From Paenibacillus hamazuiensis (GTDB taxonomy: Bacteria; Bacillota; Bacilli; Paenibacillales; NBRC-103111), in assembly GCF_023276405.1 (NCBI RefSeq), contig NZ_JALRMO010000001.1, positions 2,480,001 to 2,544,000 on the forward strand: a stretch of 64,000 nt of DNA. The letters run 5' to 3'. A program made the translations under genes and the position numbers. The notes below the pieces were generated by a model, which did no database searches, was not told the origin of the DNA, and saw only the letters and a list, made by a program, of their open reading frames with translations. This document shows positions 6,340-23,700 of this stretch, piece by piece. Numbering within the stretch: position 1 is the first letter of the stretch; each line of letters starts with the position of its first letter.

Positions 6340-7332
6340 ATGACTACGTCTGATCCACGCATACCTGTCACTGTTCTGACCGGGTTTCTCGGCGCAGGGA
6401 AAACGACTCTGCTCAATCACGTGCTTACGGCCGAGCATGGTCAAAAAATCGCCGTCATCGTCAATGAATTCGGTGAGGTTGGCATCGACAACCAGCTCGT
6501 TGTCGGCGCGGACGAAGAGATTTTTGAAATGAACAACGGCTGCATTTGCTGCACAGTAAGGGGCGACTTGATCCGTATTTTGGGAGAACTGATGGATGCG
6601 AAACGCGGAATCGGCGATCGCAAAGCGGATTTTGACCGCGTTTTGATCGAAACGACAGGTCTTGCCGATCCGGCGCCGGTGGCACAAACGTTTTTTGTCG
6701 ATGAGGAAATGGCGGAGTTTTACCGTCTTGATGCTATCGTTACGGTCGTCGACGCCCGCCATGCCGGCCAGCATCTGGATGAAGGCCATGAAGCCCAAGA
6801 GCAAGTGGCTTTCGCCGACGTCATGCTGCTGAACAAAGTCGACCTTGCTTCCGAAGATGAGCTGAAGCAGCTCGAAAGCCGTTTACGGTCCATGAATCCG
6901 ACAGCCAAAATATACCGTACGGAGCGTTCGAACATAGACATAAACAAGGTGCTCGGCATCAACGCTTTCGATTTGCAGCAAAAGCTTGAGCTTGAGCCCG
7001 GCTTCCTTGAAGAAGAGGACCACGACCATGACGATGATGTAGCGTCCATTGTTTTACAGGAAGAACGCCCTCTCGATCTGAACAAGCTGGAGAGATTTTT
7101 GGGCGTTTGGCTCTCCGAGCACGGTGTTGATACGTTCCGTTATAAAGGGGTTTTGAACATTAAAGGCGTGAAACAGCGGGTCGTTTTCCAAGGCATACAT
7201 ATGCTGTTCGACTCAACGGCGGATCGGGAGTGGAAACCGGAGGAAGCTCGGCGCAGCGAGTTCGTTGTCATTGGCCGCAATTTGGATGAAGCCTGGTTTA
7301 AGGAACAGTTCGCCGCCTGCGTCGCCGTATGA
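6340..7332 (+). CDS. CobW/COG0523 GTPase
   Basis: A 330-residue G3E GTPase, the most canonical of the four in the window. Walker A is GFLGAGKTT, the metal motif is in MNNGCICCTVRGDL, and the guanine motif is NKVD. It ends in a complete CobW_C domain. It has only a short acidic-histidine linker (EEEDHDHDDDV) rather than a long His-rich one. AAAGGAG at 6324-6330 sets the start. The stop overlaps the start of the next gene by 4 nt, so the two products are translationally coupled. Likely a zinc-allocating chaperone; a link to the MoaB-like neighbour is suggested by coupling only. Confidence 0.9.
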   Translation: MTTSDPRIPVTVLTGFLGAGKTTLLNHVLTAEHGQKIAVIVNEFGEVGIDNQLVVGADEEIFEMNNGCICCTVRGDLIRILGELMDAKRGIGDRKADFDRVLIETTGLADPAPVAQTFFVDEEMAEFYRLDAIVTVVDARHAGQHLDEGHEAQEQVAFADVMLLNKVDLASEDELKQLESRLRSMNPTAKIYRTERSNIDINKVLGINAFDLQQKLELEPGFLEEEDHDHDDDVASIVLQEERPLDLNKLERFLGVWLSEHGVDTFRYKGVLNIKGVKQRVVFQGIHMLFDSTADREWKPEEARRSEFVVIGRNLDEAWFKEQFAACVAV

Positions 7333-7853
7333 TCGCATCCTCTATCGAACAGCACCGTAAGGAAGCACCGCCCACCGTTCGCTGCTTGATTGTTACCGTC
7401 TCGGATACGAGGACGCTGGAAACGGATAAAAGCGGTCAACTGATGCGCGAACTCCTTGAAGCTGAGGGATACGTTATAGTCGGCCGCCATATCGTCAAAG
7501 ACGATTACGCCGGCATCCAGCAGCTCCTTCGTCAGGCGGGAGACGATCCGCAGGTGGAAGCCGTACTGCTGAACGGCGGTACCGGTATTGCCAAGCGGGA
7601 TACGACCTACGAGGCTGTTCGCGATGTGCTTGACAAAGAGCTGCAAGGCTTCGGCGAAATATTCCGCTTTCTAAGCTATACCGAGGACATCGGACCTGCC
7701 GCCATTCTGAGCCGCGCGGTCGCAGGCGTATATCGGGATAAGGCGATTTTTTCCATGCCAGGCTCTTCAGGGGCCGTTAAGCTGGCGCTAACGAAAATCA
7801 TCATTCCGGAATTGAAGCATGTTATGCGCGAAATCTATAAAGATGTAACTTGA
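7329..7853 (+). CDS. moaB: MoaB/MogA-family molybdenum cofactor protein
   Basis: A 174-residue MoaB-like protein. The family adenylylates molybdopterin or otherwise acts late in molybdenum cofactor synthesis. The MPT-binding signature regions are present: LNGGTGIAKRDTTYE around residue 95 and IFSMPGSSGAVKLAL near residue 145. It starts inside the stop codon of the upstream GTPase gene and is followed at once by a terminator, so it forms a two-gene zinc-boxed operon. Placement in a zinc regulon is odd because MoaB is not known to use zinc. Confidence 0.88.
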   Translation: MIASSIEQHRKEAPPTVRCLIVTVSDTRTLETDKSGQLMRELLEAEGYVIVGRHIVKDDYAGIQQLLRQAGDDPQVEAVLLNGGTGIAKRDTTYEAVRDVLDKELQGFGEIFRFLSYTEDIGPAAILSRAVAGVYRDKAIFSMPGSSGAVKLALTKIIIPELKHVMREIYKDVT

Positions 7854-7882
7854 AAGCAGTAGCGATACTGCTTTTTCTTTTT
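7854..7882 (+). terminator. Rho-independent terminator after moaB
   Basis: AAAGCAGTA and TACTGCTTT flank a four-base loop and are followed by a T-rich run. It starts directly after the moaB stop codon. Confidence 0.8.
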
Positions 7883-7971
7883 GGGAGAAAGCTTTTATTA
7901 GATTTTAAGGTAACTTTCAGATTTATCTGCTAACATGTAAAACAAGCGTTTTTCTTGGGAGGCTTTACGTT

Positions 7972-9027
7972 ATGCCGGCTTTGGCAATCAACTTCTTCTT
8001 CATTGCAGCTATCAGCTTCATGATCGTCATAGCGACGAACCCGAAAATATTTACATCCATACATATTCCTTTGCCTGATGCCGGTCATCTTCAAACGTTT
8101 AAAACGACGTTAATCAGCATCATGCTGGAAGCTCTCCCTTTTATCATTCTTGGAGTGCTCGTTTCCTCCTTGATGCAAGTGTTCATACCCGAGAAGTGGA
8201 TTCAAAAGCTGACTCCGCGCAATCCCCTACTCGGTATTTTATTCGCTTGCGTCCTGGGAGTTATTTTTCCGGTATGCGAATGCGGCATGATTCCGGTCGT
8301 CAGACGGCTTATAGCCAAAGGAATGCCCCTTTATATCGGGACGGTGTTTATATTAGCCGGCCCTATTATCAACCCGGTTGTATTTGCAGCTACATACATG
8401 GCATTTCGAACCAGGCCTGAGATGGCCTATATGCGAATGGGATTGGCTTTTGGAGTTGCCGCGTGCGTTGGTCTGTTTATATATTATTTTGTGAAGAAAA
8501 ATGCGTTCAGAACGAGCAAATCCGCTCTTCATCATGTTCATTCCCATGAGCATGGGGAATCCGTCCATCATCATACGCATGATCATACGCATGATCATTC
8601 CCATCAGCATCATCAGAGCAGCAAGTGGTACTCCTTGTTTGAACATGCTTGCTCCGAATTTTTTGATATGGGCAAATATTTGATGTTCGGCTCGTTCATT
8701 ACAGCCACGATCCAAACTTTCGTAAGCCGCGGAGACCTTACTCAGATCGGTCATGGAATGTTAAGTTCACATCTGTTCATGATGGGCTTCGCCTACGTAC
8801 TGTCGCTTTGTTCCACATCCGACGCCTTCGTCGCTACGTCGTTTTTGAGCACTTTTTCGGCAGGATCTTTGCTGACCTTTCTTGTTTTCGGACCGATGCT
8901 CGATTTAAAAAGCACTTTAATGCTGTTGTCCGCATTCAAGACTCGTTTTGTCGTCATTCTTTTTTTACTTATCGTCATCCTGGTACCGGCTGGAGCCTTT
9001 GCCCTGGAAAGCTTGTTTATCCATTAA
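7972..9027 (+). CDS. YcgR/ArsP-type permease with His-rich cytoplasmic loop
   Basis: A 351-residue polytopic membrane protein of the COG0701 permease family (ArsP_1/DUF318), close in layout to Bacillus YcgR. About eight hydrophobic segments are visible. The family cysteine motif is in FPVCECGMIPVVRRL (about residue 101). A histidine-rich loop around residues 185-215, with repeats such as HTHDHTHDHSH, splits the protein into two bundles and suggests binding of zinc or another soft metal. GGGAGG precedes the start. It is the first gene of a pair with the TIGR03943-like gene at 9050. I see no clear Zur box here, so zinc control is not shown. The transported substrate is unknown. Confidence 0.82.
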   Translation: MPALAINFFFIAAISFMIVIATNPKIFTSIHIPLPDAGHLQTFKTTLISIMLEALPFIILGVLVSSLMQVFIPEKWIQKLTPRNPLLGILFACVLGVIFPVCECGMIPVVRRLIAKGMPLYIGTVFILAGPIINPVVFAATYMAFRTRPEMAYMRMGLAFGVAACVGLFIYYFVKKNAFRTSKSALHHVHSHEHGESVHHHTHDHTHDHSHQHHQSSKWYSLFEHACSEFFDMGKYLMFGSFITATIQTFVSRGDLTQIGHGMLSSHLFMMGFAYVLSLCSTSDAFVATSFLSTFSAGSLLTFLVFGPMLDLKSTLMLLSAFKTRFVVILFLLIVILVPAGAFALESLFIH

Positions 9028-14813: not shown

Positions 14814-14878
14814 ACCGCGATTTACGCGGCAAAAAATGAGATAAGGTTATTGTCACCCGGCCCGGCTTCCTAAAAGCT
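14814..14878. repeat. Dispersed hairpin repeat, copy A
   Basis: CCGCGATTTACGCGG, a hairpin with 6-bp arms, followed by about 48 bp including ATGAGATAAGG and TTGTCACCCGGCCCGG. The same module, in the same orientation, occurs at 21567-21632, and its hairpin half again at 23657-23700. Copies A and B lie on either side of murG-gntR-vanHAX-vanRS. Confidence 0.65.
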
Positions 14879-14902: not shown

Positions 14903-14948
14903 TTGACGTACGTGCCTCTGCCCTGCCGGGATTCGACCAGACCGATTT
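14903..14948 (-). pseudogene. Remnant of a GntR-family winged-helix segment
   Basis: Read on the minus strand, these bases encode LVESRQGRGTYV in frame. That is nearly the same as LVESRQGGGTYV in the intact regulator at 16124-16813, and the DNA is almost identical over about 40 bp (compare 16604-16645). Nothing else of the gene is recognisable around it, so it is a short relic or a gene-conversion scar. Confidence 0.55.
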
Positions 14949-15010: not shown

Positions 15011-16081
15011 TCAGGACGTTAAGCTATTCGTTTCAATCAGCTTGACAATCGTTTCTACCGCATTCGTTTCATTGTGGGATAACATGGCTTCTTTGTAGGC
15101 TTCTCGCTTCGCATAGAGTGTTTCAACACGTTCAGCAAAGGATTCGGGGGTTAGCTCTTCTTCCGGAAGCACATCGGCGTAGCCGGCCTTTTGGAACGAT
15201 TTAGCATTTAAAATTTGATCGCCTCTACTCGCCTGCAGCGTGAGTGGAATGAGAAGCATCGGCTTTTTCAATAAGAGAAATTCATAAATCGAAGTGGCTC
15301 CCGCCCGGGAAATGACCACATCCGACATCGCCATGACGTCCGGAAGCTCGTCAAAAATATATTCGAATTGTTTATACCCTCTCTTGCCGGAAAGTTCGAG
15401 GGAGACATTACCATTTCCACAAATATGTACAATTTGGAATTGCGTCAGCAGCCTGTCCAGATTATCCCTGACGGCCTGGTTAATCACTTGAGAGCCAAGA
15501 CTGCCGCCCATGACCAGAAGAACAGGCTTCCTGGAATGAAAATCACAGAAATGATAGCCCTTTGAAGCTTTTCCGTTTAAAATTCCCTCACGAATCGGAA
15601 GTCCCGTTAAAATCGCTTTTTGATCCTGCACATGCTGTATCGATTCCGGAAACGTGACACAAACCTTCTTTGCAAAAGGAATCGAAATTTTGTTGGCAAG
15701 TCCCGGCGTCATATCTGACTCATGGATAATGACCGGGATCTTGTTCATCCGGCTTCCAAGAACAACCGGGACGGAAACGAACCCGCCTTTCGAAAAAACG
15801 ATGGCGGGCTTCAAACGACGTAATAATCTATAAGATTCGTAAACGCCTTTAATGACTCTGAAGGGATCTTTGAAATTTTGGAGATCAAAATATCTGCGCC
15901 ATTTCCCGGAGGAAATCGGATAAAAAGGAACGCCTTCGCGTTCGATAATGTCTTTCTCGATACCGGTGGCTGAACCGATGTAGCGGACTTCCCAGCCTAA
16001 CTGCCGAAGCTTGCTCATCAGCGCGAGGTTCGGCGTGACGTGTCCCGCCGAACCTCCTCCGGTAAAAACGATGGTTTTCAT
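15011..16081 (-). CDS. murG: MurG: lipid I N-acetylglucosaminyltransferase
   Basis: A 356-residue GT-B glycosyltransferase that adds GlcNAc to lipid I at the inner face of the membrane, making lipid II. The N-terminal glycine-rich loop TGGGSAGHVTPNLAL, the second G loop MGGSLGSQVINQAV, and the UDP-GlcNAc region ISRAGATSIYEFLLL with a following GDQ are all intact. It is the last gene of the leftward van set, 42 nt after the GntR gene, and no cell-division or mur genes surround it. It is therefore probably an extra MurG acting on D-lactate-ended precursors; that role is inference from position. Confidence 0.92.
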   Translation of the reverse strand: MKTIVFTGGGSAGHVTPNLALMSKLRQLGWEVRYIGSATGIEKDIIEREGVPFYPISSGKWRRYFDLQNFKDPFRVIKGVYESYRLLRRLKPAIVFSKGGFVSVPVVLGSRMNKIPVIIHESDMTPGLANKISIPFAKKVCVTFPESIQHVQDQKAILTGLPIREGILNGKASKGYHFCDFHSRKPVLLVMGGSLGSQVINQAVRDNLDRLLTQFQIVHICGNGNVSLELSGKRGYKQFEYIFDELPDVMAMSDVVISRAGATSIYEFLLLKKPMLLIPLTLQASRGDQILNAKSFQKAGYADVLPEEELTPESFAERVETLYAKREAYKEAMLSHNETNAVETIVKLIETNSLTS

Positions 16082-16123
16082 GTTATGTCACCTCGAATAA
16101 CGGGAAATATTGCAGTGAATGTT

Positions 16124-16813
16124 TCATTTTACCGACAGCAAAGCGTTCTCGACCTGGGCGAAGTGCTTCGCCATCGTTGCTGCGGCCAGATTCGGATCTC
16201 TGTCGCGGATCGCTTCGAACAGCTTCTTGTGCTCCTCAAACAGCTTACCGGCCGTATCCTTCCCGCTGTAGAGCCAAAGCTTGCGGCTGATCTCGATGGT
16301 GCGGAACATCGCCTCGGAGATGTGTATCATCATCGTTTCCAGAATCGCGTTGCCAGTCGCTTTGGCGATGGCGAGATGAAAGTTCGTATCGTAAATCCGG
16401 CTGATCTCTTCGCTGTTGGCGGCGTTGCGCATTTGCCCGATGATTTTGCTTAAGTTTTCGACGTCTTCGGCGGTCCGGTGCTTGGCAGCCAGCTCGGCTG
16501 CTCCGACCTCGAGGATCTTACGCACCTGGAGCACCTGCGAAAGCTCGGTGTTCGAATTTTGCAGCGATTCCGGCATGGCCGGAGGCTCGAGCCCGGGCTT
16601 CTTGACGTAAGTGCCTCCACCCTGCCGGGATTCGACCAGATCGAGCGCCTTCAGATGGCTGAGCGCCTCGCGCACCGTCGAGCGTCCCACACGGTATTGC
16701 GCCGCCAGCCGGTCGATTGTGTCCAGCTTCTCTCCCGGCTTGATCAGTCCCGCTTCGATAATGCGCCGAAGCTCGTCCGTAATGATTTCGTAATTTTTCT
16801 TCTGTAAATTCAT
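16124..16813 (-). CDS. GntR/FadR-subfamily transcriptional regulator in the van cluster
   Basis: A 229-residue regulator with an N-terminal winged helix (about 10-75, containing RVGRSTVREALSHL and LVESRQGGGTYV) and a C-terminal all-helical FCD domain (about 90-220). The FCD domain holds the usual metal-site histidines in YDTNFHLAIA, MMIHISEA and EEHKKLFEAI. FCD regulators typically bind organic acids such as lactate, pyruvate or acyl-CoA. The gene starts 17 nt after vanX in the same direction and precedes murG. A response to D-lactate made by VanH is an attractive guess but not shown. A 40-bp fragment of a very similar gene survives at 14903. Confidence 0.85.
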   Translation of the reverse strand: MNLQKKNYEIITDELRRIIEAGLIKPGEKLDTIDRLAAQYRVGRSTVREALSHLKALDLVESRQGGGTYVKKPGLEPPAMPESLQNSNTELSQVLQVRKILEVGAAELAAKHRTAEDVENLSKIIGQMRNAANSEEISRIYDTNFHLAIAKATGNAILETMMIHISEAMFRTIEISRKLWLYSGKDTAGKLFEEHKKLFEAIRDRDPNLAAATMAKHFAQVENALLSVK

Positions 16814-16829
16814 AGGAATCCCGGCCGGG

Positions 16830-17483
16830 TTATTTTGCTATTTGACGATTTATCGGCAAATACTTTTCACTGTCCCATGTTATAGGAAAATCAAAATAAG
16901 TATGGGGATATGGCTCAGTTTTCAATCGGTAATGCCACCATTCACATTCATATGCGATAAAACCGCTGGACTCCATGATAGAACGCAATAACCGGCGGTT
17001 TCTAGCTTCAGCTTCACCGATTTCCTTAGCTTCGTGATGGGAGATAACATCCATCAGATCAAAATCACCGCCCATCGGAACAAGAGCGCCGGTATCCAAT
17101 CGATAAAGCGTCAGATCAATTGCACTGCCACGGCTATGACTCGATTGAGTCGCTACGTAACCCTTCTTAATCATATCGGTACGGTTGATATTAGGATAAT
17201 GCTTTGATTTTGTAAGCCCATCTTCAGGCTCTTCAGACCACTGCAGAAAGCGATCCACAGCCCGTTGCGGACGGTAACCGTCCCAGAGAAGCAAGCCATA
17301 CCCAAGATCAGCTGCCTGCTCCTGTGCCGCATGCAGCGCGGAAGCCAATGCATGGGTACCGACTATACGATTGACTTCATAACCGTCGACCGGTTTTCCG
17401 GTGAAATTGTCCCATGTGGCATACTTAGCATCCCAACGAATTCCGGGGAGAACTTCATCAAGGAACACAAATCCTTTTTCCAT
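16830..17483 (-). CDS. vanX: VanX D-Ala-D-Ala dipeptidase
   Basis: A zinc-dependent D,D-dipeptidase of 217 residues that hydrolyses D-Ala-D-Ala so that only D-Ala-D-Lac feeds peptidoglycan synthesis. The zinc ligands are visible in SSHSRGSAIDLTLY (His and Asp) and EWWHY (catalytic Glu two before the third ligand His). RWDAKYATWDNFTGKPVDGY near the N terminus is nearly the same as in enterococcal VanX. It carries about 15 extra residues at the C terminus. GGAGGG before the ATG overlaps the end of the ligase gene, and the gap to that gene is four bases. Cytoplasmic. Confidence 0.96.
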   Translation of the reverse strand: MEKGFVFLDEVLPGIRWDAKYATWDNFTGKPVDGYEVNRIVGTHALASALHAAQEQAADLGYGLLLWDGYRPQRAVDRFLQWSEEPEDGLTKSKHYPNINRTDMIKKGYVATQSSHSRGSAIDLTLYRLDTGALVPMGGDFDLMDVISHHEAKEIGEAEARNRRLLRSIMESSGFIAYECEWWHYRLKTEPYPHTYFDFPITWDSEKYLPINRQIAK

Positions 17484-17487
17484 ATGC

Positions 17488-18519
17488 TTATCCCTCCATC
17501 GCTAAAGTAACAACGCGTTCAATCACATCGGCGAGCGTTAAGCCGGCGGCGGCCATCATTCTTGGATAGCGGCTGTATGAGGTGCAACCAGGCATCGTGT
17601 TGACTTCATTGAGCACGACTTGCCCGTCTTCCTGCAGAAACATATCCACGCGAGCAAGCCCGCAGCAGCCCAAAGCCCGATAAATCCGCTTCGCTGTTTC
17701 TTGTATCCGTTTCTTATCCTGATCTGAAATATCGGCTGGAACCTTGATCGTAGAGTTTTCAGAACCGTTCTCCGGATTTTGTTCCTGATGGATTCGGAAG
17801 AAGCCATGTGACAACTGAATTTGATCCACCTCACCAACAAACAAGTCGTTACCGGTTCCGAGCACTGCGCAGCCTACCTCGCTGCCGGAAATCATTTGCT
17901 CAATCAAAATTTTTGTATCATATTGCCTTGCTTTTTCGATGGCTTCCGGCAATTCATCCCTATGGCGTACCTTACTGACACCAAAAGACGATCCGGAACG
18001 GGCTGGTTTAACAAAGACGGGATAAACCAATTGCTCCGCGTCCGGTTCGTCACCTTTGTTGAATGTCAAATAGTCAGGCGTAGCGATTCCCGCGTTTCTT
18101 ACGATCACATAAGTCAAAGACTTATCCATACACAGCGCCGAGCTCTGGACATCGCAGCCTACATAGGGAATGCCGGAAAGCTCCAACAGTCCCTGCATGG
18201 CGCCATCCTCTCCCATCTTTCCATGCAAAACAGGAAAGGCAACATCCAGGCGGATGATCTTATATTCTCCCTGCTCCATCACAATCACCCCGCGGACATT
18301 TCTGTCCGGCGACAACATGGCGGGAATACAATGTCCGCTCTCCCAATTCGCATCGGGATAGTCGCAGAGCTTCCATCCGCCGGCTTTGGTTATCCCGATG
18401 TAAAGCGGATCAAATTTCTCCGGGTCAAGGTTTCTGGCGATCTCCTGTGCGGATTTTATGGAGACGTCATGTTCTTCCGAACAGCCTCCGAATAAAACGG
18501 CAATCTTGAGCTTGTTCAT
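17488..18519 (-). CDS. vanA: VanA/VanF-type D-alanine-D-lactate ligase
   Basis: A 343-residue ATP-grasp ligase that joins D-Ala to D-lactate, replacing the vancomycin target. LFGGCSEEHDVSIKSA at the start, HGKMGEDGAMQGL, and VKPARSGSSFGVSKV (ATP loop) are diagnostic. The omega-loop reads FFRIHQE, with the histidine that marks D-Lac ligases instead of the tyrosine of ordinary Ddl enzymes. The substrate loop reads NTMPGCTSYSRYP, with Cys where VanA and nearly all Ddl proteins have Phe. The start abuts the vanH stop with no gap. It is a VanA-like family member; whether it groups with VanF, VanA or a separate type needs alignment. Confidence 0.95.
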   Translation of the reverse strand: MNKLKIAVLFGGCSEEHDVSIKSAQEIARNLDPEKFDPLYIGITKAGGWKLCDYPDANWESGHCIPAMLSPDRNVRGVIVMEQGEYKIIRLDVAFPVLHGKMGEDGAMQGLLELSGIPYVGCDVQSSALCMDKSLTYVIVRNAGIATPDYLTFNKGDEPDAEQLVYPVFVKPARSGSSFGVSKVRHRDELPEAIEKARQYDTKILIEQMISGSEVGCAVLGTGNDLFVGEVDQIQLSHGFFRIHQEQNPENGSENSTIKVPADISDQDKKRIQETAKRIYRALGCCGLARVDMFLQEDGQVVLNEVNTMPGCTSYSRYPRMMAAAGLTLADVIERVVTLAMEG

Positions 18520-19482
18520 TTATCTTCTTCCCCTTTCGAATGCCAAGCAGTTCTGAATTGAGTTCTCCACGATATCTTGCAGCGCGTGATCGGTGTAAAA
18601 AGCGGTATGCGGCGTAATAATCACATTCGGCAATTTTTGCAGTCGCAGCAGCAGTTGATTATGGATCGGCTTGTTGGTACAGTCGCGATAAAATATACCT
18701 TCTTCACCTTCAACGACATCGAGTGCGGCGCCACCCAGCCTCCCAGCTTCCAGAGCCCCGACCAGCGCCTCTGTGTCAATAAGAGAACCGCGTGCGGTGT
18801 TAATAACAAAGGCCCCTTGTTTCATGCTTTCGATTCGTTTCCGGTCAAGTATATGGTATGTATCGCTATTTAGCGGCATATGGAGCGTCAGGACATCACT
18901 TTGCCGCAGCAGCTCGCTCAGAGTCACATATTCGGCCTTAGCTTGCGGATGCAAGTTGTAAGCCAGTATGCGGCATCCGAAGCCGTTTAGCCGATCAATA
19001 ACCGCCTGACCTATACGCCCTGTCCCGAGTACCCCCACCGTCATGTCGCGCAGCTCCCGTCCCGGTACAGCGCAAAGCTTGTAATCATGGACGTCTGCCT
19101 TGCATAAAACCGACTTTGCATTTCGTATGGACATGAGTATCAGCATCAAAGTAAAATCCGCTACGCTGGCCGGCGAATATGCTACATTGCCAACAGTAAT
19201 GCCAAGCTGTTCAGCCGCTTCCATGTCAATGTGATTGCAGCCTATGCTTCTTGTGGATATGTAAGCGATGCCGTTCTCTTTGAGGGCGCGAAGAGTGGAA
19301 AGATCTATTTCCGTTTTATGGTTAACGCTTATACAGCAATTGCCCGATGCCAACGCGGCGTTTTCTGCCGATACCGCGGATTGGACGATCGTCGGTTCAA
19401 CACCATAATGCGGTGAATACCTTCTGAACAAATCCGCTTCGTCCTCTTCACATCCGTAAATCGTGATTCCTTTTTTCTCCAC
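18520..19482 (-). CDS. vanH: VanH D-lactate dehydrogenase
   Basis: An NAD-dependent D-2-hydroxyacid dehydrogenase that reduces pyruvate to D-lactate for the ligase. The Rossmann motif is GVLGTGRIGQAV, the catalytic Arg lies in NTARGSLID, and the catalytic His in ITPHTAFYTDHAL. The start is taken as GTG at 19482: AAAGGATGG lies eight bases upstream, the product then begins VEKKGITIYGCEEDEAD as in VanH, and its 320 residues match the family length. An ATG at 19494 touches the ribosome site, and one at 19545 would lie inside a hairpin. It is the first gene of vanHAX. Confidence 0.95.
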   Translation of the reverse strand: MEKKGITIYGCEEDEADLFRRYSPHYGVEPTIVQSAVSAENAALASGNCCISVNHKTEIDLSTLRALKENGIAYISTRSIGCNHIDMEAAEQLGITVGNVAYSPASVADFTLMLILMSIRNAKSVLCKADVHDYKLCAVPGRELRDMTVGVLGTGRIGQAVIDRLNGFGCRILAYNLHPQAKAEYVTLSELLRQSDVLTLHMPLNSDTYHILDRKRIESMKQGAFVINTARGSLIDTEALVGALEAGRLGGAALDVVEGEEGIFYRDCTNKPIHNQLLLRLQKLPNVIITPHTAFYTDHALQDIVENSIQNCLAFERGRR

Positions 19483-19508
19483 GGGGTCAACCATCCTTTC
19501 TGCAAAAT

Positions 19509-19566
19509 AAAAAGCCTGTCTGCTTTGATAAACCCATGTTATCAAAAGCGGCCAGGCCGTTTTTTA
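19509..19566. terminator. Terminator-like hairpin between vanRS and vanH
   Basis: A long inverted repeat with AAAAAGCCTG / CAGGCCGTTTTT outer arms and GCTTTGATAA / TTATCAAAAGC inner arms around a seven-base loop. On both strands the stem is followed by a T-run, so it can act bidirectionally. On the leftward strand it ends only about 10 nt before the vanH ribosome site and lies downstream of the presumed vanH promoter, so it could act as an attenuator or as a 5' RNA stabiliser. Confidence 0.75.
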
Positions 19567-19583
19567 ATATGGAGTTGATGAAT

Positions 19584-19622
19584 TCCTAAGAAAATCCTAA
19601 CATCGGATTGAGTTTTTCCTAA
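19584..19622 (-). promoter_or_regulatory. Candidate VanR-binding direct repeats upstream of vanH
   Basis: The hexamer TTAGGA on the minus strand (TCCTAA on plus) occurs at 19584, 19595 and 19617, spacings of 11 and 22 bp, exactly one and two helical turns. OmpR/PhoB-type regulators such as VanR bind such phased direct repeats. The third copy overlaps the vanS stop codon. A TATTAA-like -10 lies at about 19564-19569, immediately before the hairpin. Confidence 0.6.
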
Positions 19623-20743
19623 TGTCTAACAGGTAAAGATACCGTAAAGGTAACTATGTTCTCTTTGCTTTGAGCCTCAATGGTTCCACCGTGCAGGGTG
19701 ACGATTTCTTTGGCGATGGACAACCCTAACCCGGAACCGCCGGTGCCCGCCGTGCGCGCTTCATCCAAGCGATAAAACTTCTCGAAAATAGCGGCCAGCT
19801 TGTCCGGTGGAATGGTATTGCCTTGATTTTGAAAAACGATCTTTATCGAACCTTCCATTTCCTCTGCAGAAATAACGATTTCCGTGTTGGGGTAGCTGTA
19901 GGCGGCCGCGTTTTTCAGAATATTATTGAAGACCCGCGCCAGTTTCACCGGGTCGCCGTACACCGTCAAATTTTCGTCTGCGTGAAGTACAGTGGTATTT
20001 CCTTTTTCGGATAAGATCGGATAAAACTCGTCTGCCATTTGCACAAGCATGTAGTAAAGGTCTATCGTTTCCTTTTCCAGCTTGATTTGCTGCAAGTTGT
20101 ACCGGGTGATTTCAAAAAACTCGTTGATTAGTTTCTCCAAGCGATAGGCTTTGTCGAGAGTAATGTGAGTATATTTGGCTCTCTTCTCCATGGGCATATC
20201 GGGAGCCTCGTCCAATAAACTCAAGTAACCTATAACCGATGTAAGCGGAGTCCTGATGTCGTGGGCCAAATAAACGACCAAATCATTTTTGCGCTGCTCC
20301 GCTTCCTGAGCAGCCTTTTTCTGTCTTTGCAGCTGGTCCTTTATGGTATTCAGACGATTTTCCATGAAATCCATCTCCGGGGAGAGGGATATTCTATCCT
20401 CCGAATCTTCCACAAGCCGATCCATGCCGGAGCTGATTTCATCAAAATATTTTGTGAACCACGAGATAAAGAACCGGGAATGAATGACCAGCAAAACCAA
20501 AGTCAAAAGAAACAGAATGATTTCTATGTTATTGCGAAATACTAACTGATAGATTTGCTGTGCAGCGGAATTATCCAGATCAAAAGTATCAATCAGAAAT
20601 TGAACGATGCGATCTCCAATCTGTCCACGTAGAATATCCCGCAACAAAAAAACGGTAACGACAGCGGAAACCGTAATCAGCAGCATCTGTAAAAAAGCTT
20701 TTTGCTTCAACCTTGCATAATTGCCCTTCTTATTGCTTTTCAA
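19619..20743 (-). CDS. vanS: VanS sensor histidine kinase
   Basis: A 374-residue membrane kinase. Two N-terminal membrane segments (about 18-35 and 75-92) enclose a short extracellular loop, as in VanA-type VanS, which has no large sensor domain. A HAMP-like linker is followed by the H box YLAHDIRTPLTSVIGYLS and by N, G1 and G2 boxes (NILKNAAAYSYPN, then GGSGLGLSIAKEI). The phospho-acceptor His and the ATPase core are intact. The start is a TTG overlapping the vanR stop by 14 nt. It would phosphorylate VanR when glycopeptides or cell-wall damage are sensed. Confidence 0.95.
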   Translation of the reverse strand: MKSNKKGNYARLKQKAFLQMLLITVSAVVTVFLLRDILRGQIGDRIVQFLIDTFDLDNSAAQQIYQLVFRNNIEIILFLLTLVLLVIHSRFFISWFTKYFDEISSGMDRLVEDSEDRISLSPEMDFMENRLNTIKDQLQRQKKAAQEAEQRKNDLVVYLAHDIRTPLTSVIGYLSLLDEAPDMPMEKRAKYTHITLDKAYRLEKLINEFFEITRYNLQQIKLEKETIDLYYMLVQMADEFYPILSEKGNTTVLHADENLTVYGDPVKLARVFNNILKNAAAYSYPNTEIVISAEEMEGSIKIVFQNQGNTIPPDKLAAIFEKFYRLDEARTAGTGGSGLGLSIAKEIVTLHGGTIEAQSKENIVTFTVSLPVRH

Positions 20744-21434
20744 TTTTATAGCCGACCCCCCATACGGTCTTGATATACTTTGGGTTTTCTACAGTATCGC
20801 CCATTTTTTCACGCAAGTGACGGATATGAACGGTGATCGTATTGTTGCTTTTGCTGTAATACTCGTCCTTCCAAATCTCCCGAAATAGTTCCTCGGCACT
20901 TACCACGCTGCCCTTTCGTTCCAGTAATATGCGGAGTATGGAAAACTCGGTGGGTGTCAGCTCGAGCGGTTTTTCATTCAGGAGGCACTCATGCGAGTTT
21001 ACATTCATAACCAAACCGGAATGGACGATTACAGGGTCGGCAGCAAGCGCAGACTGCATCGTGTTGTATTTTTTATAGCGCCGCAGCTGTGCTTTTACAC
21101 GCGCTACCATCTCAAGCGGACGGAACGGTTTTGTGATGTAGTCGTCGGCACCCAAGGTGAGCCCCGTAATTTTATCCGTCTCTTCATCTTTGGCCGTCAG
21201 CATAATGATGGGATATGTATGCCGTTCCCGTATTTTCTGGCAAAGCGCAAAACCATTGATATCCGGCAGCATAATGTCCAGAATGGCAAGGTCAAGCTCC
21301 GTCGTTTCAATGCAGGAAAGAGCTTCCTTTGCGGCATAAAACTTGAGCACTTCATAATTTTCATTTCGCAGATACACTTCTACTAAATCCGCTATTTCAT
21401 GCTCATCGTCAACAATGAGAACTTTAGCGCACAT
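20730..21434 (-). CDS. vanR: VanR response regulator
   Basis: A 234-residue OmpR-family regulator that should activate vanRS and vanHAX. The receiver domain has the acidic pocket VDDEHE, the phospho-acceptor Asp in LAILDIMLPDINGF, and KPF. The C-terminal winged helix includes LTPTEFSILRILLERKG and TVHIRHLREKMGD. The layout and wording are those of VanA/VanF-type VanR. It precedes and overlaps vanS. Phased CTTAT-type repeats at 21507-21540 upstream could be its own binding sites. Confidence 0.95.
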   Translation of the reverse strand: MCAKVLIVDDEHEIADLVEVYLRNENYEVLKFYAAKEALSCIETTELDLAILDIMLPDINGFALCQKIRERHTYPIIMLTAKDEETDKITGLTLGADDYITKPFRPLEMVARVKAQLRRYKKYNTMQSALAADPVIVHSGLVMNVNSHECLLNEKPLELTPTEFSILRILLERKGSVVSAEELFREIWKDEYYSKSNNTITVHIRHLREKMGDTVENPKYIKTVWGVGYKIEKQ

Positions 21435-21506
21435 GATTTCAGCTCCTTTTCAGACAAAACCTTGGCATCCTACTATTTTACTAAATTCGGTAACTTTATT
21501 TATGAT

Positions 21507-21540
21507 TTTTCGCATGAGAAATTATTAAGATTTTCATAAG
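21507..21540 (-). promoter_or_regulatory. Candidate vanR promoter with phased repeats
   Basis: On the minus strand three 11-bp units follow one another: CTTATGAAAAT, CTTAATAATTT and CTCATGCGAAA. This phasing resembles OmpR/PhoB-type sites and suggests autoactivation by VanR. A TAAAAT -10-like element lies about 30 bp further downstream, near 21478. Confidence 0.4.
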
Positions 21541-21566
21541 GCCGCTTTACCCATAATACAGAAAAA

Positions 21567-21632
21567 GCCGCGATTTACACGGCGTATTTAATGAGACAAT
21601 GTTGTTGTCACCCGACCCGACTTGTAACGGAA
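21567..21632 (-). repeat. Dispersed hairpin repeat, copy B (vanZ terminator)
   Basis: GCCGCGATTTACACGGC plus about 48 bp matching copy A (ATGAGACAATG, then TTGTCACCCGACCCGACTT). Read leftwards, the hairpin is followed by TTTTTC and so resembles a rho-independent terminator, placed about 100 bp beyond the vanZ stop. Confidence 0.65.
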
Positions 21633-21738
21633 CGCAGCACGTCACACCTGCCGGACTACGTATTCAGAGCCATAGAACCCTGTTGAGGGGAGCGATATGT
21701 TTGTGGAGGGCATCATCTCGCATATGCAATATAGATAT

Positions 21739-22305
21739 TCAGAGGCGCAATCTCACCACGAATAAATAATATAATAAAACAGGTAATCCAATTGCTGATA
21801 GTATTGTGATTGCTGTACGTACTTTTTTCTCATCTCGTAGTATAAACAATAAAAACTTATACCCTACAATACCAACTAATCCACCGAAACAATTTAAAAT
21901 TATGTCATCAATGTCTGATGCTCCAATGCCTAAAAGCCCCTGAATGATTTCAATAAATAAACTCACTATGAATATAAATAGCAAATTGATTATTACTCTT
22001 TTATCGGTTTTGAATAATGATAAATATGTGCCAAGAGGAATAAAGATCATTATATTGCCAGCCACATTGGCAAACGCGAAATTTTTTATAGTGGCAGAGC
22101 TGGTAAATATATATTCCTTTATACTGTAAAAAGGAATGAGATTGATTGACCTGTTTAAAGTCCTTTGACTATTTAACAAATCAAAAAGCGAAACTCTTGA
22201 TAAGAACAATAACTTAAATAAAAAAAGGATGTAACAAATGAAAACTCCATATAAAAAGACTGTTTCAATTCTCTTTAGTTTATTTATAATACTTCCATTT
22301 TTCAT
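21739..22305 (-). CDS. vanZ: VanZ-family membrane protein
   Basis: A 188-residue VanZ-family protein with about five hydrophobic segments. The family hallmarks are visible in NLIPFYSIKEYIF, the segment NVAGNIMIFIPLGTYLSL, and IEIIQGLLGIGASDIDDI followed by NCFGGLVG. VanZ proteins give low-level teicoplanin or lipoglycopeptide resistance by an unclear mechanism. The start at 22305 is preferred to an ATG further upstream because of the AGAAGGCGGG just before it. AT-rich. It lies upstream of vanR with a terminator-like repeat between, so it is probably a separate transcript. Confidence 0.88.
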   Translation of the reverse strand: MKNGSIINKLKRIETVFLYGVFICYILFLFKLLFLSRVSLFDLLNSQRTLNRSINLIPFYSIKEYIFTSSATIKNFAFANVAGNIMIFIPLGTYLSLFKTDKRVIINLLFIFIVSLFIEIIQGLLGIGASDIDDIILNCFGGLVGIVGYKFLLFILRDEKKVRTAITILSAIGLPVLLYYLFVVRLRL

Positions 22306-22510
22306 TTCTTCCCGCCTTCTCTCTGACCTCATTCGATTAACCACTTAATGGTAGAAATAGAGATCCTTCAATACGTATTAACCCCTGAAGAAGTCAAACG
22401 ATTTGTTCAAAGGTTCTCATTTCCTCTTTTTATCATATTTTATTACATTTAAACTCAATAAATTTAATTTCTTCTTGTGCGGCACTGACTCCTGCTTTTA
22501 AGAAAAAATA

Positions 22511-22559: not shown

Positions 22560-22982
22560 TTAACCTAAGAAAGCAATAGAACGTTTTACTTTCCTTGCAA
22601 ATGCGATGGGATTGTCAATGGACTCCCAGTGAATATACATAAGACGCGGCTTCTCATTAAGCCAGTGATTATGAACTGCCGTTACTTTAATCCCGTTTCT
22701 GCGAAGGTTTGACAGCAAACGATTGACTTGGTTTTGGAATAGCGCCGTTTCCCCCAAACAAAGTGCTCGTCCCGATTTATCCAGCGATTCAAACGAAAAC
22801 AATTGGTAACGGACCAATGGGGATGTTGTACGTCTACCTAAAATAGTGGCATTGATTCTTCTATTTCTAGAGACAAAACAAACCGGCCCCTTAGTAATTT
22901 CATGCTCTGTTCCACCCAAAATGGTTGAAAATTGATTGCATAGTTTTTTAAAACGGGGACTTACGACCACTTTTTCCGTCAT
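22560..22982 (-). CDS. DUF1259-family protein, copy 1
   Basis: A 140-residue soluble protein resembling DUF1259 (LpqO-like). Diagnostic stretches are FSFESLDKSGRALCLGET, then QNQVNRLLSNLRRNGIKV and TAVHNHWLNEKPRLMYIH. The histidines in HNHW and the glutamate of GET look like possible metal ligands. Start chosen at 22982 because AAAGGATGG precedes it. A very similar gene lies immediately upstream at 23039, so this is a tandem duplication. Function of the family is unknown to me. Confidence 0.75.
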   Translation of the reverse strand: MTEKVVVSPRFKKLCNQFSTILGGTEHEITKGPVCFVSRNRRINATILGRRTTSPLVRYQLFSFESLDKSGRALCLGETALFQNQVNRLLSNLRRNGIKVTAVHNHWLNEKPRLMYIHWESIDNPIAFARKVKRSIAFLG

Positions 22983-23038
22983 ACGAATCCATCCTTTCAT
23001 AAATGAAGTGAACCTACAGCTCCAAACTGAGCAGCCAA

Positions 23039-23458
23039 TTAACCCAAGAATGCAATGGATTCTTTGGTTCTTTTTGCAAATACAACCGGATTCATTATGG
23101 CTTCCCAGTGCATATACATTAATCGAGGGTTTTCTTTAAGCCAGTGGTTATGAAGCGCTGTCACTTTTATTCCGCGTTTTCGGAGATTCGACATCAAGCG
23201 ATTCACCTGATTTTGATGAACGGCAGTCTCGCCCAAGCACAGTGCGCGCCCCGACTTATCGAGCGATTCAAAGGAGAACATTTGCATTTGAACTAACGGG
23301 GAGCGCGTTCTTCTTCCTAGGATCGATTCCTTTAAGTTCGTCATTCGCGTGACAAAACAAACCGGACCTTTTTCAATTTCCGATTCGCCTCCCAAGATTT
23401 TTCCGAATTGCATACAAAGCCTTTTAAATCGTGGACTTACCTTCACATTTTCCGCCAT
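23039..23458 (-). CDS. DUF1259-family protein, copy 2
   Basis: A 139-residue paralogue of the gene at 22560, alignable along its whole length (for example FSFESLDKSGRALCLGET and TALHNHWLKENPRLMYMH). Start at 23458 follows GGAGGAGG. The two genes are 56 nt apart and share a direction, so they are probably one transcript ending at the hairpin at 22511. A third, broken copy lies on the opposite strand at 24519-24617. Confidence 0.75.
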   Translation of the reverse strand: MAENVKVSPRFKRLCMQFGKILGGESEIEKGPVCFVTRMTNLKESILGRRTRSPLVQMQMFSFESLDKSGRALCLGETAVHQNQVNRLMSNLRKRGIKVTALHNHWLKENPRLMYMHWEAIMNPVVFAKRTKESIAFLG

Positions 23459-23656
23459 ATGAATCCTCCTCCATCGTAGTACAACATAACGTATGTTAAA
23501 CGACGGAAAATGAATTGGACGAGACACTATTGCTTTAAAAATATGCGTTTAGTCCGAATACCGATCATACTTCAATAATGAGGGAATGTAAGAAAACCCA
23601 GCATCAAGATCGTTGCTAGGTCCTTTTGTATGCAACTTTATCCCATAAATAAAAAA

Positions 23657-23700
23657 GCCGCGATTTACGCGGCATTTAACGAGACAGTATTACATAAAAA
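23657..23700 (-). repeat. Dispersed hairpin repeat, copy C (terminator)
   Basis: GCCGCGATTTACGCGGC followed by ATTTAACGAGACAG, matching the first part of copies A and B before diverging. On the minus strand it is followed by TTTTTTATTT, a good terminator for the secreted-protein gene that ends at 23709. Confidence 0.7.

Follow-up and report, generated by a model that had tools for sequence, protein, structure and literature searches.

A predicted vanHAX glycopeptide-resistance operon of Paenibacillus hamazuiensis extended by a lactate-type GntR regulator gene and a second murG

We analysed a 64,000-nt stretch of the Paenibacillus hamazuiensis genome (G000:C1:2480001-2544000 of an 8.8-Mb, two-contig host genome; hereafter the window), in which a cluster of van genes is followed by a gene for a GntR-type regulator and a gene for MurG. 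All of these genes lie on the minus strand with open reading frames, in the order vanZ-like, vanR, vanS, vanH, vanA, vanX, gntR and murG (Table 1). The gene content, vanHAX in one operon with vanRS adjoining, is that of a D-Ala-D-Lac glycopeptide-resistance operon, with VanH marginally short of its model, and on these matches the locus is a predicted glycopeptide-resistance operon. Its ligase scored under the cut-off of every named subtype (VanI 599/700, VanB 558/750, VanA 551/775, VanF 550/750, VanD 547/700 and VanM 530/760; here and below, scores are bits/model cut-off for NCBIfam models, and domains are from Pfam). The regulator, with its GntR winged helix-turn-helix (HTH) and FCD domain, belongs to the FadR subfamily of the GntR superfamily. 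The window MurG belongs to the MurG equivalog family and is a predicted lipid I N-acetylglucosamine transferase in which three invariant or nearly invariant residues differ.

Table 1. Features of the van locus in window coordinates (scores are bits/model cut-off).
Feature	Position	Strand	Evidence
gntR coding-sequence relic, 40 nt, 3' of murG	14906..14945	-	repeat of 16602-16644, 91% over 43 nt; 85% over 40 nt to L114 gntR
murG, second copy, captured dcw-type MurG, 356 aa	15011..16081	-	TIGR01133 275.9/250.25, NF009102 515/339, both passed
relic of spoVE/ftsW 3' end (codes ..NISRYSR-stop), in gntR-murG gap	16086..16112	-	blastn
gntR, FadR/FCD-type regulator, glcDF/LutR group, 229 aa	16124..16813	-	Pfam GntR PF00392 and FCD PF07729 above cut-off
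vanX-gntR gap, 16 nt	16814..16829	-	
vanX, D-Ala-D-Ala dipeptidase	16830..17483	-	NF033115 375/320
vanA-type D-Ala-D-Lac ligase	17488..18519	-	NF000206 620/550
vanH, D-lactate dehydrogenase	18520..19545	-	NF000492 539.6/540, 0.4 bits short of cut-off
vanS sensor kinase	19619..20743	-	NF033091 412/400
vanR response regulator	20730..21434	-	NF033117 388/350
vanZ-like gene, upstream	21739..22344 (or ..22305)	-	Pfam VanZ domain only

An initial annotation, made from the letters of the window, had described vanHAX followed in the same direction by gntR and a complete murG, with vanRS upstream, and the open frames bear this out. The 42-nt gap it gave between gntR and murG was recovered exactly, and the 17 nt it gave between vanX and gntR measured 16. 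In a consensus scan neither gap contained a site resembling a terminator or a promoter; the scan gave a weak promoter-like match inside vanX (17004-16975) and overall returned about as many sites as it did in shuffled sequence.

The pair behind vanX proved to be shared with other species. Searching 392 genomes of the order, we found 18 with a D-Ala-D-Lac ligase over the cut-off, which contain all 11 ligase genomes among 104 genomes of the family. Each genome was counted once (L056-L058, L060, L061 and L071 are the same as L031, L029, L027, L032, L046 and L028, L113 is the same as L045, and L065 is very likely L030). Both genes lie downstream at full length in 6 of the 18 (the window, G011, G012, G071, G081 and G094); one further genome (G115) retains murG together with a broken gntR and has other genes over the 3.4 kb after vanX, another has gntR with a 58-residue murG match (G009), and two have one gene each, gntR alone (G021) or murG alone (G078). 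P. sedimenti (G044/L045), missed by the search because its ligase gene is broken, has gntR with a broken murG. We therefore rejected a layout unique to this strain, as the linkage beyond it that the initial annotation had asked about is present and recurs in other species; by this comparison the gntR-murG pair is a genuine addition to vanHAX that is found repeatedly. Two of these loci depart further from the window: between vanX and gntR in G115 (L066, 9781-12843) lie an asparagine-synthase-like gene and a penicillin-binding-protein-type D-Ala-D-Ala carboxypeptidase with a weak VanY-D match (90/625), and in the ligase-vanX-gntR locus of G021 (L059) no VanH match was seen from vanS to vanA (6638-8623).

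We then asked where the window murG came from. The host genome has four MurG matches, two of which pass the TIGR01133 cut-off, and a murG at 3.37 Mb, 68% identical to that of the window, stands in the division and cell wall (dcw) cluster between spoVE/ftsW (TIGR02615 515/449) and murB (TIGR00179 289/145). This is the second copy that the initial annotation had proposed to look for, and because it exists the window murG is an extra copy. Neither a sole copy nor a duplicate of the host's own gene is tenable, as the window MurG is 68% identical to the host dcw MurG and 88% identical to the dcw MurG of P. sedimenti.

For phylogeny we used 69 MurG rows, leaving out the truncated MurG of G035 and the van MurG fragment of G009. 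Matches were present in 97 of the 104 family genomes, and 57 rows carry the label dcw, which denotes each genome's main MurG; C-terminal codons of spoVE/ftsW lie at most 200 nt before murG in 52 of the 57, and the five rows lacking them are distant (G004, G014, G019, G023 and G088). Seven van-linked MurGs, that of the window among them, formed one clade (99/90), and the row closest to this clade is the P. sedimenti dcw MurG (96/69), nested inside the dcw MurGs of the genus of P. sedimenti. The van MurG of G115 fell elsewhere among the dcw MurGs of the same genus, and that of G081 fell outside the genus in a poorly supported position (94/55, long branch). The approximately unbiased (AU) test rejected a single capture, with all nine van MurGs together (p-AU 1.6e-5), and also joining the main clade to G115 (3.7e-4) or to G081 (2.0e-4). 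By these trees, murG has been captured at least three times behind van regulators. Three genomes that gave no ligase match in the 104-genome family search (G050, G029 and G034) have a second, distant MurG-like gene, 48-50% identical to that of the window, in a deep clade of its own (L118, L119 and L151).

Remnants of the source remain next to the captured gene. A 3' stub of spoVE/ftsW precedes the van murG in the window and in all seven relatives tested (L027, L029, L045, L046, L062, L064 and L066), and its length is about 300 nt in the P. sedimenti van locus (L045), 212 nt in L064 (G094), 156 + 79 nt in L029, 119 nt in L066 (G115), and 19-30 nt in L027, L046, L062 and the window, the stub of L062 having only 19 nt (E 1e-4). 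The window stub, 27 nt, is 96% identical to the P. sedimenti dcw region directly before murG (blastn, E 1e-7), and the 31 nt directly 3' of the window murG match the same dcw region at 90%. Tree placement and stubs agree, indicating that murG was cut out of the dcw cluster of a related species. The gene also appears to move alone: between L064 and L029 synonymous divergence (dS) is 0.05 for murG, 0.43 for gntR and saturated for vanA, and the L064 (G094) VanA is 66% identical to those of the window and L029, i.e. belongs to a vanHAX of another lineage. On this evidence, murG is exchanged by itself between van clusters.

Such mobility also fits a reading in which gntR and murG are passengers of recombination between van clusters and the chromosome, with no role in resistance. 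The two genes are absent, partial or broken in 12 of the 18 loci, capture relics persist in the gaps, and the murG of G094 was exchanged recently on its own (dS 0.05 to L029 against saturated vanA). However, chance passengers would not be expected to include the same gene at the same place three separate times, and published actinobacterial loci likewise have murG (in the portion of PMC8698665 that describes them). The ratio of nonsynonymous to synonymous divergence (dN/dS) speaks in the same direction: it was 0.15-0.36 for the window gntR against seven van-linked copies (0.29-0.36 for the closest), 0.25-0.33 for the window murG against four close van copies, 0.34-0.45 for vanX (three close copies) and 0.18-0.20 for vanA. 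Thus gntR and murG resemble vanX and lie above vanA, and by this measure both are under purifying selection. We consider hitchhiking without function rather doubtful.

The regulator has a different source. The window GntR scored under the cut-offs of LldR (107/311), GlcC (83/301), PdhR (105/330) and NanR (115/260). Relatives at 74% identity or more occur in 10 of the 104 family genomes, nine adjoining vanX and one, in G003, adjoining glcDF. Among 18 loci of GntR relatives outside van clusters (74% identity in G003, 50-59% and 40-44% in the others), the regulator gene is divergent from glcD-glcF in 14, and in three it stands beside a gene 32-34% identical to GlcF, presumably LutA-like. In G102 the regulator gene is flanked on its far side by a lactate permease gene (TIGR00795, above cut-off); the GlcD (543/568) and GlcF (276/333) of this locus fall just short of their equivalog cut-offs, so that glycolate and D-lactate oxidases are indistinguishable there. 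P. macerans MER 50.2 (L176, G376) has, at one of the 18 loci, a glcDF-type gntR with neither glcDF nor the GlcF-like gene beside it and with a degraded operator, and its van locus is without gntR-murG.

The ten van GntRs (that of the window and nine others) formed a single clade (97/94), adjacent to the G003 regulator of glcDF and within the glcD-linked regulators, which is consistent with one capture of gntR. In relatives, the vanX-gntR gap is 113-311 nt long (L027, L029, L031 and L064) and retains an operator, an antisense stub of glcD, or both; the stub measures 224-244 nt in L064 (E 1e-44) and is shorter in L027 and L066. These remaining antisense stubs confirm the glcDF-locus origin of gntR. 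Of the 49 residues that never vary across 15 glcD-linked regulators (the partial G115 GntR excluded), the window GntR has retained 48, including the VGRSTxREA helix and D142, H146, H195 and H217 of the FCD domain, which we take to be metal ligands, and both clade and conserved residues place it among the glcDF/LutR-type regulators of Paenibacillales. Regulators of the FadR subfamily mostly bind carboxylic acids, according to the pertinent section of PMC8827060, and sensing of D-lactate or glycolate by the window regulator is plausible from its kinship. The gntR relic behind murG corresponds to the end of the HTH and suggests that gntR was duplicated earlier or that two of its copies recombined.

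The glcDF loci also yielded a candidate binding site. The sequence TCATCWGATGACCTGA occurs in 14 of 14 gntR/glcD gaps with at most two mismatches, a count that is description only, since the consensus was read from these same gaps. Independent of it, the host's own glcDF gap, which was not used for the consensus, holds a perfect copy of TCATCWGATGACCTGA. As controls, the reversed pattern had at least 5 mismatches in every one of the 15 gaps, and none of 1000 mononucleotide shuffles per gap reached the score. The core matches the LutR site TCATC-N1-GATGA, and B. subtilis LutR responds to L-lactate (as given in excerpts of PMC11734750). A motif survey (PMC4494728) gives a different general FadR motif and does not mention the word LutR. 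Genome-wide, the host has one perfect site, at 1.7755 Mb between its own glcD and a divergent GntR gene, and, at 2 mismatches, two further sites, of which the one at 8.287 Mb adjoins a GlcF-like gene and a GntR gene and the one at 7.584 Mb has no such neighbours (reversed control, 1). The same search of 11 other genomes (P25, G003 and nine that have a van gntR) gave sites with at most 1 mismatch in 9, with none for the reversed control; of the 10 places concerned, 7 adjoin glcD (with a GntR match in 6), 1 is the van locus of G009, and 2 (G078 and G094) have no glcD in a 3-kb locus.

At the van loci the site is patchy. A putative operator with 1-2 mismatches stands at the same place before gntR in L027, L029 and L031, whose three gaps are homologous; it is missing from the 311-nt gap of L064 (8 mismatches) and from L059 (11) and L062 (9), L066 has no match at up to 4 mismatches, and the vanX-gntR gaps of L045 and L046 are too short for it. 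The van region of the window has no operator, the whole window containing a single match with 3 mismatches (at 8292) against 2.9 in shuffles, and with gntR only 16 nt after vanX, the stretch that holds the site in relatives is missing. Direct control of the van operon by the window GntR is therefore unlikely, and any target must lie elsewhere. The suggestion of the initial annotation that the FCD regulator senses D-lactate and adjusts the pathway is thus upheld in one part, D-lactate or glycolate sensing being a reasonable guess from the glcDF-linked relatives and the LutR-type operator, and weakened in the other by the missing operator.

The operators in relatives raise the possibility of an ancestral feed-forward arrangement, in which the regulator sat on an operator before gntR-murG and was freed by the D-lactate that VanH makes, the window having since lost the switch so that MurG is now made together with vanHAX. 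The shared position of the site in L027, L029 and L031 argues for this, as does the response of LutR, a relative of this regulator group, to L-lactate (in the relevant passage of PMC11734750). Of 9 relatives that have a van gntR, however, only 3 have the site, and because the three gaps are homologous they count as one case; we consider this history possible, though on balance unlikely.

We next examined whether the captured MurGs share features that would set them apart from ordinary ones, since the initial annotation had held that the extra MurG may be suited to D-lactate-ended lipid I. Specialisation of this kind would account for the recruitment of MurG beside D-Ala-D-Lac operons at least three times in Paenibacillales and also in actinobacteria (loci reported in a section of PMC8698665), and 6 of the 7 MurGs of the main van clade carry K223N, where all 57 dcw rows have K; L61W is found in the window only. 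Against it, no position held a residue common to the three captured MurG types and present in at most 25% of the 57 dcw rows. MurG binds lipid I mostly via the sugar and pyrophosphate, and the peptide end should matter little. With three separate captures of ordinary MurGs and no common rare substitution, the claim found no support, and we regard a MurG specialised for D-lactate-ended lipid I as very unlikely. Because the three captures share no rare residue, the simplest reading is that more MurG rather than different MurG was selected, and a dosage role accounts for the data better than an enzyme adapted to lipid I that ends in D-lactate.

Gene order, the origin of both added pieces, the repeated capture of murG, purifying selection and the absence of the operator are established from the sequence. 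The account that we favour, and consider probable, is that of a composite operon in which vanRS-vanHAX was joined by a regulator gene from a glcDF locus and a murG from the dcw cluster of a related species, pieces having moved between species, and which supplies a spare MurG and a regulator acting in trans. A glycopeptide sensed by VanS would switch on vanHAX, and gntR and murG would be expressed by read-through from the vanH promoter. MurG would then add ordinary capacity for the conversion of lipid I to lipid II, as a dosage effect or spare enzyme and not as a D-Lac-specialised one. GntR would act in trans on TCATC-N-GATGA sites, chiefly the one at the host glcDF operon, which would tie oxidation of D-lactate (or glycolate) to the D-lactate made by VanH; in some relatives, it would govern gntR-murG itself.

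Several observations weigh against this composite account. Neither gene is indispensable, since 8 of the 18 genomes have neither (G024, G087, G179, G250, G273, G372, G376 and G391, the contig of G273 stopping 2.3 kb after vanX) and in others they are broken or fragmentary: P. sedimenti has a broken murG, P. flagellatus a murG fragment and G115 a broken gntR. Nor do the two always occur together, P. sp. P25 having murG without gntR and G021 gntR without murG. The window copies themselves are altered at invariant or nearly invariant sites (MurG L61W, K223N and L315F; GntR G58D), changes that could represent adaptation or early decay. Finally, there is a problem of sign: if D-lactate lifts a repressor, the D-lactate from VanH would turn glcDF on rather than off, favouring D-lactate oxidation instead of preventing it, so that action in trans would have no obvious benefit.

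A stronger form of the composite account, which we put forward tentatively and think improbable, is that the operon is wired to its own metabolite, with GntR sensing VanH-made D-lactate and coupling it to MurG through the ancestral operator and, in this strain, to the host oxidase in trans. If this were true, resistance would hinge on the regulation of D-lactate oxidation and on having a spare MurG, two elements that the standard vanHAX model lacks.

The initial annotation had named a vanZ upstream of vanR; the protein has a Pfam VanZ domain but falls far short of the named models VanZ-A/F/Pt (52/250, 25/375 and 38/260). The 304 nt separating its gene from vanR contain a terminator-like stem (21583-21567), and because of this spacing we leave the vanZ-like gene out of the operon, to which it probably does not belong. 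None of the seven close relatives' loci that cover the region upstream of vanR (L027-L030, L032, L045 and L046) gave a VanZ match (tblastn, E<=1e-8). A terminator-like hairpin (CCGCG-ATTTA-CGCGG) lies in a repeat of about 55 nt at window positions 14815-14868, 21568-21623 and 23658-23684, and these repeats flank vanRSHAX-gntR-murG on both sides, the vanZ-like gene falling outside. We rejected the copies at 14815-14868 and 21568-21623 as ends of an element, since the genome contains 8 copies of the hairpin core (at most 1 mismatch; none for the reversed control), 5 of which fall in a region of about 110 kb around the cluster, and the sequence is thus a dispersed terminator-like repeat. The window contains no tRNA genes as insertion points. 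Upstream of the cluster, two adjoining genes (22560-23527), in a stretch of 38% GC, both have the PF07485 (DUF1529) domain.

The VanF operon of P. popilliae and the VanA operon of Tn1546 share the vanRSHAX core, with vanY and vanZ as accessories; to our knowledge, neither has murG or gntR. Contrary to the impression of the initial annotation that the layout was unrecorded, van-murG linkage is already known: a 2022 study (PMC9689679) describes, in its relevant sections, several Paenibacillus in which the van locus is followed by a MurG gene, including P. mesophilus SYSU K30004, Paenibacillus sp. SM69 and strain YIM B00624 with vanZRSHAX and murG. By strain name, SYSU K30004 and SM69 are our L027 and L046. 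These vanRSHAX/vanZRSHAX-murG loci have the same van genes and a downstream MurG, and the sections concerned are silent on the origin and repeated capture of murG. Rhodococcus equi VanO and other actinobacterial loci have the order vanHAX-orf2-murG, as reported in part of PMC8698665, with murG downstream alike and orf2 in the place of gntR. In the Actinosynnema locus (L033), a distant MurG, matched at 31%, begins about 460 nt after the vanX match.

For the regulator, the closest parallels lie outside resistance loci. The Paenibacillales glcDF loci with a divergent GntR gene share the GntR/FCD family, the recognition helix and TCATC-N-GATGA, and adjoin oxidation genes, not vanHAX; B. subtilis LutR likewise shares family, recognition helix and operator, responds to L-lactate and adjoins lactate/glycolate oxidation genes (in the pages of PMC11734750 concerned with it). 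The word GntR is absent from the main text of PMC9689679, PMC8698665 and PMC11273654, and the GntR passages of PMC5899746 located by search concern S. aureus NorG and not a van locus. A literature search on vanHAX with GntR and on lactate regulators turned up no paper that describes a GntR in a van locus. The presence and origin of the regulator and the repeated capture of murG, not found in print, thus seem new.

According to a section of PMC8698665, the contribution that MurG makes to glycopeptide resistance is not yet known. The repeated capture of an ordinary murG suggests that the step from lipid I to lipid II is worth reinforcing when precursors carry D-lactate, and van loci without gntR-murG (e.g. 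those of P. macerans MER 50.2 and P. sp. YN15) offer a natural comparison. A lactate-type regulator with its operator provides a testable link between D-lactate catabolism and vanHAX resistance. Paenibacillus has been called a key source of van ligase genes for enterococci (in the introductory part of PMC11273654), and the stubs described here document the gain of chromosomal genes by a resistance operon.

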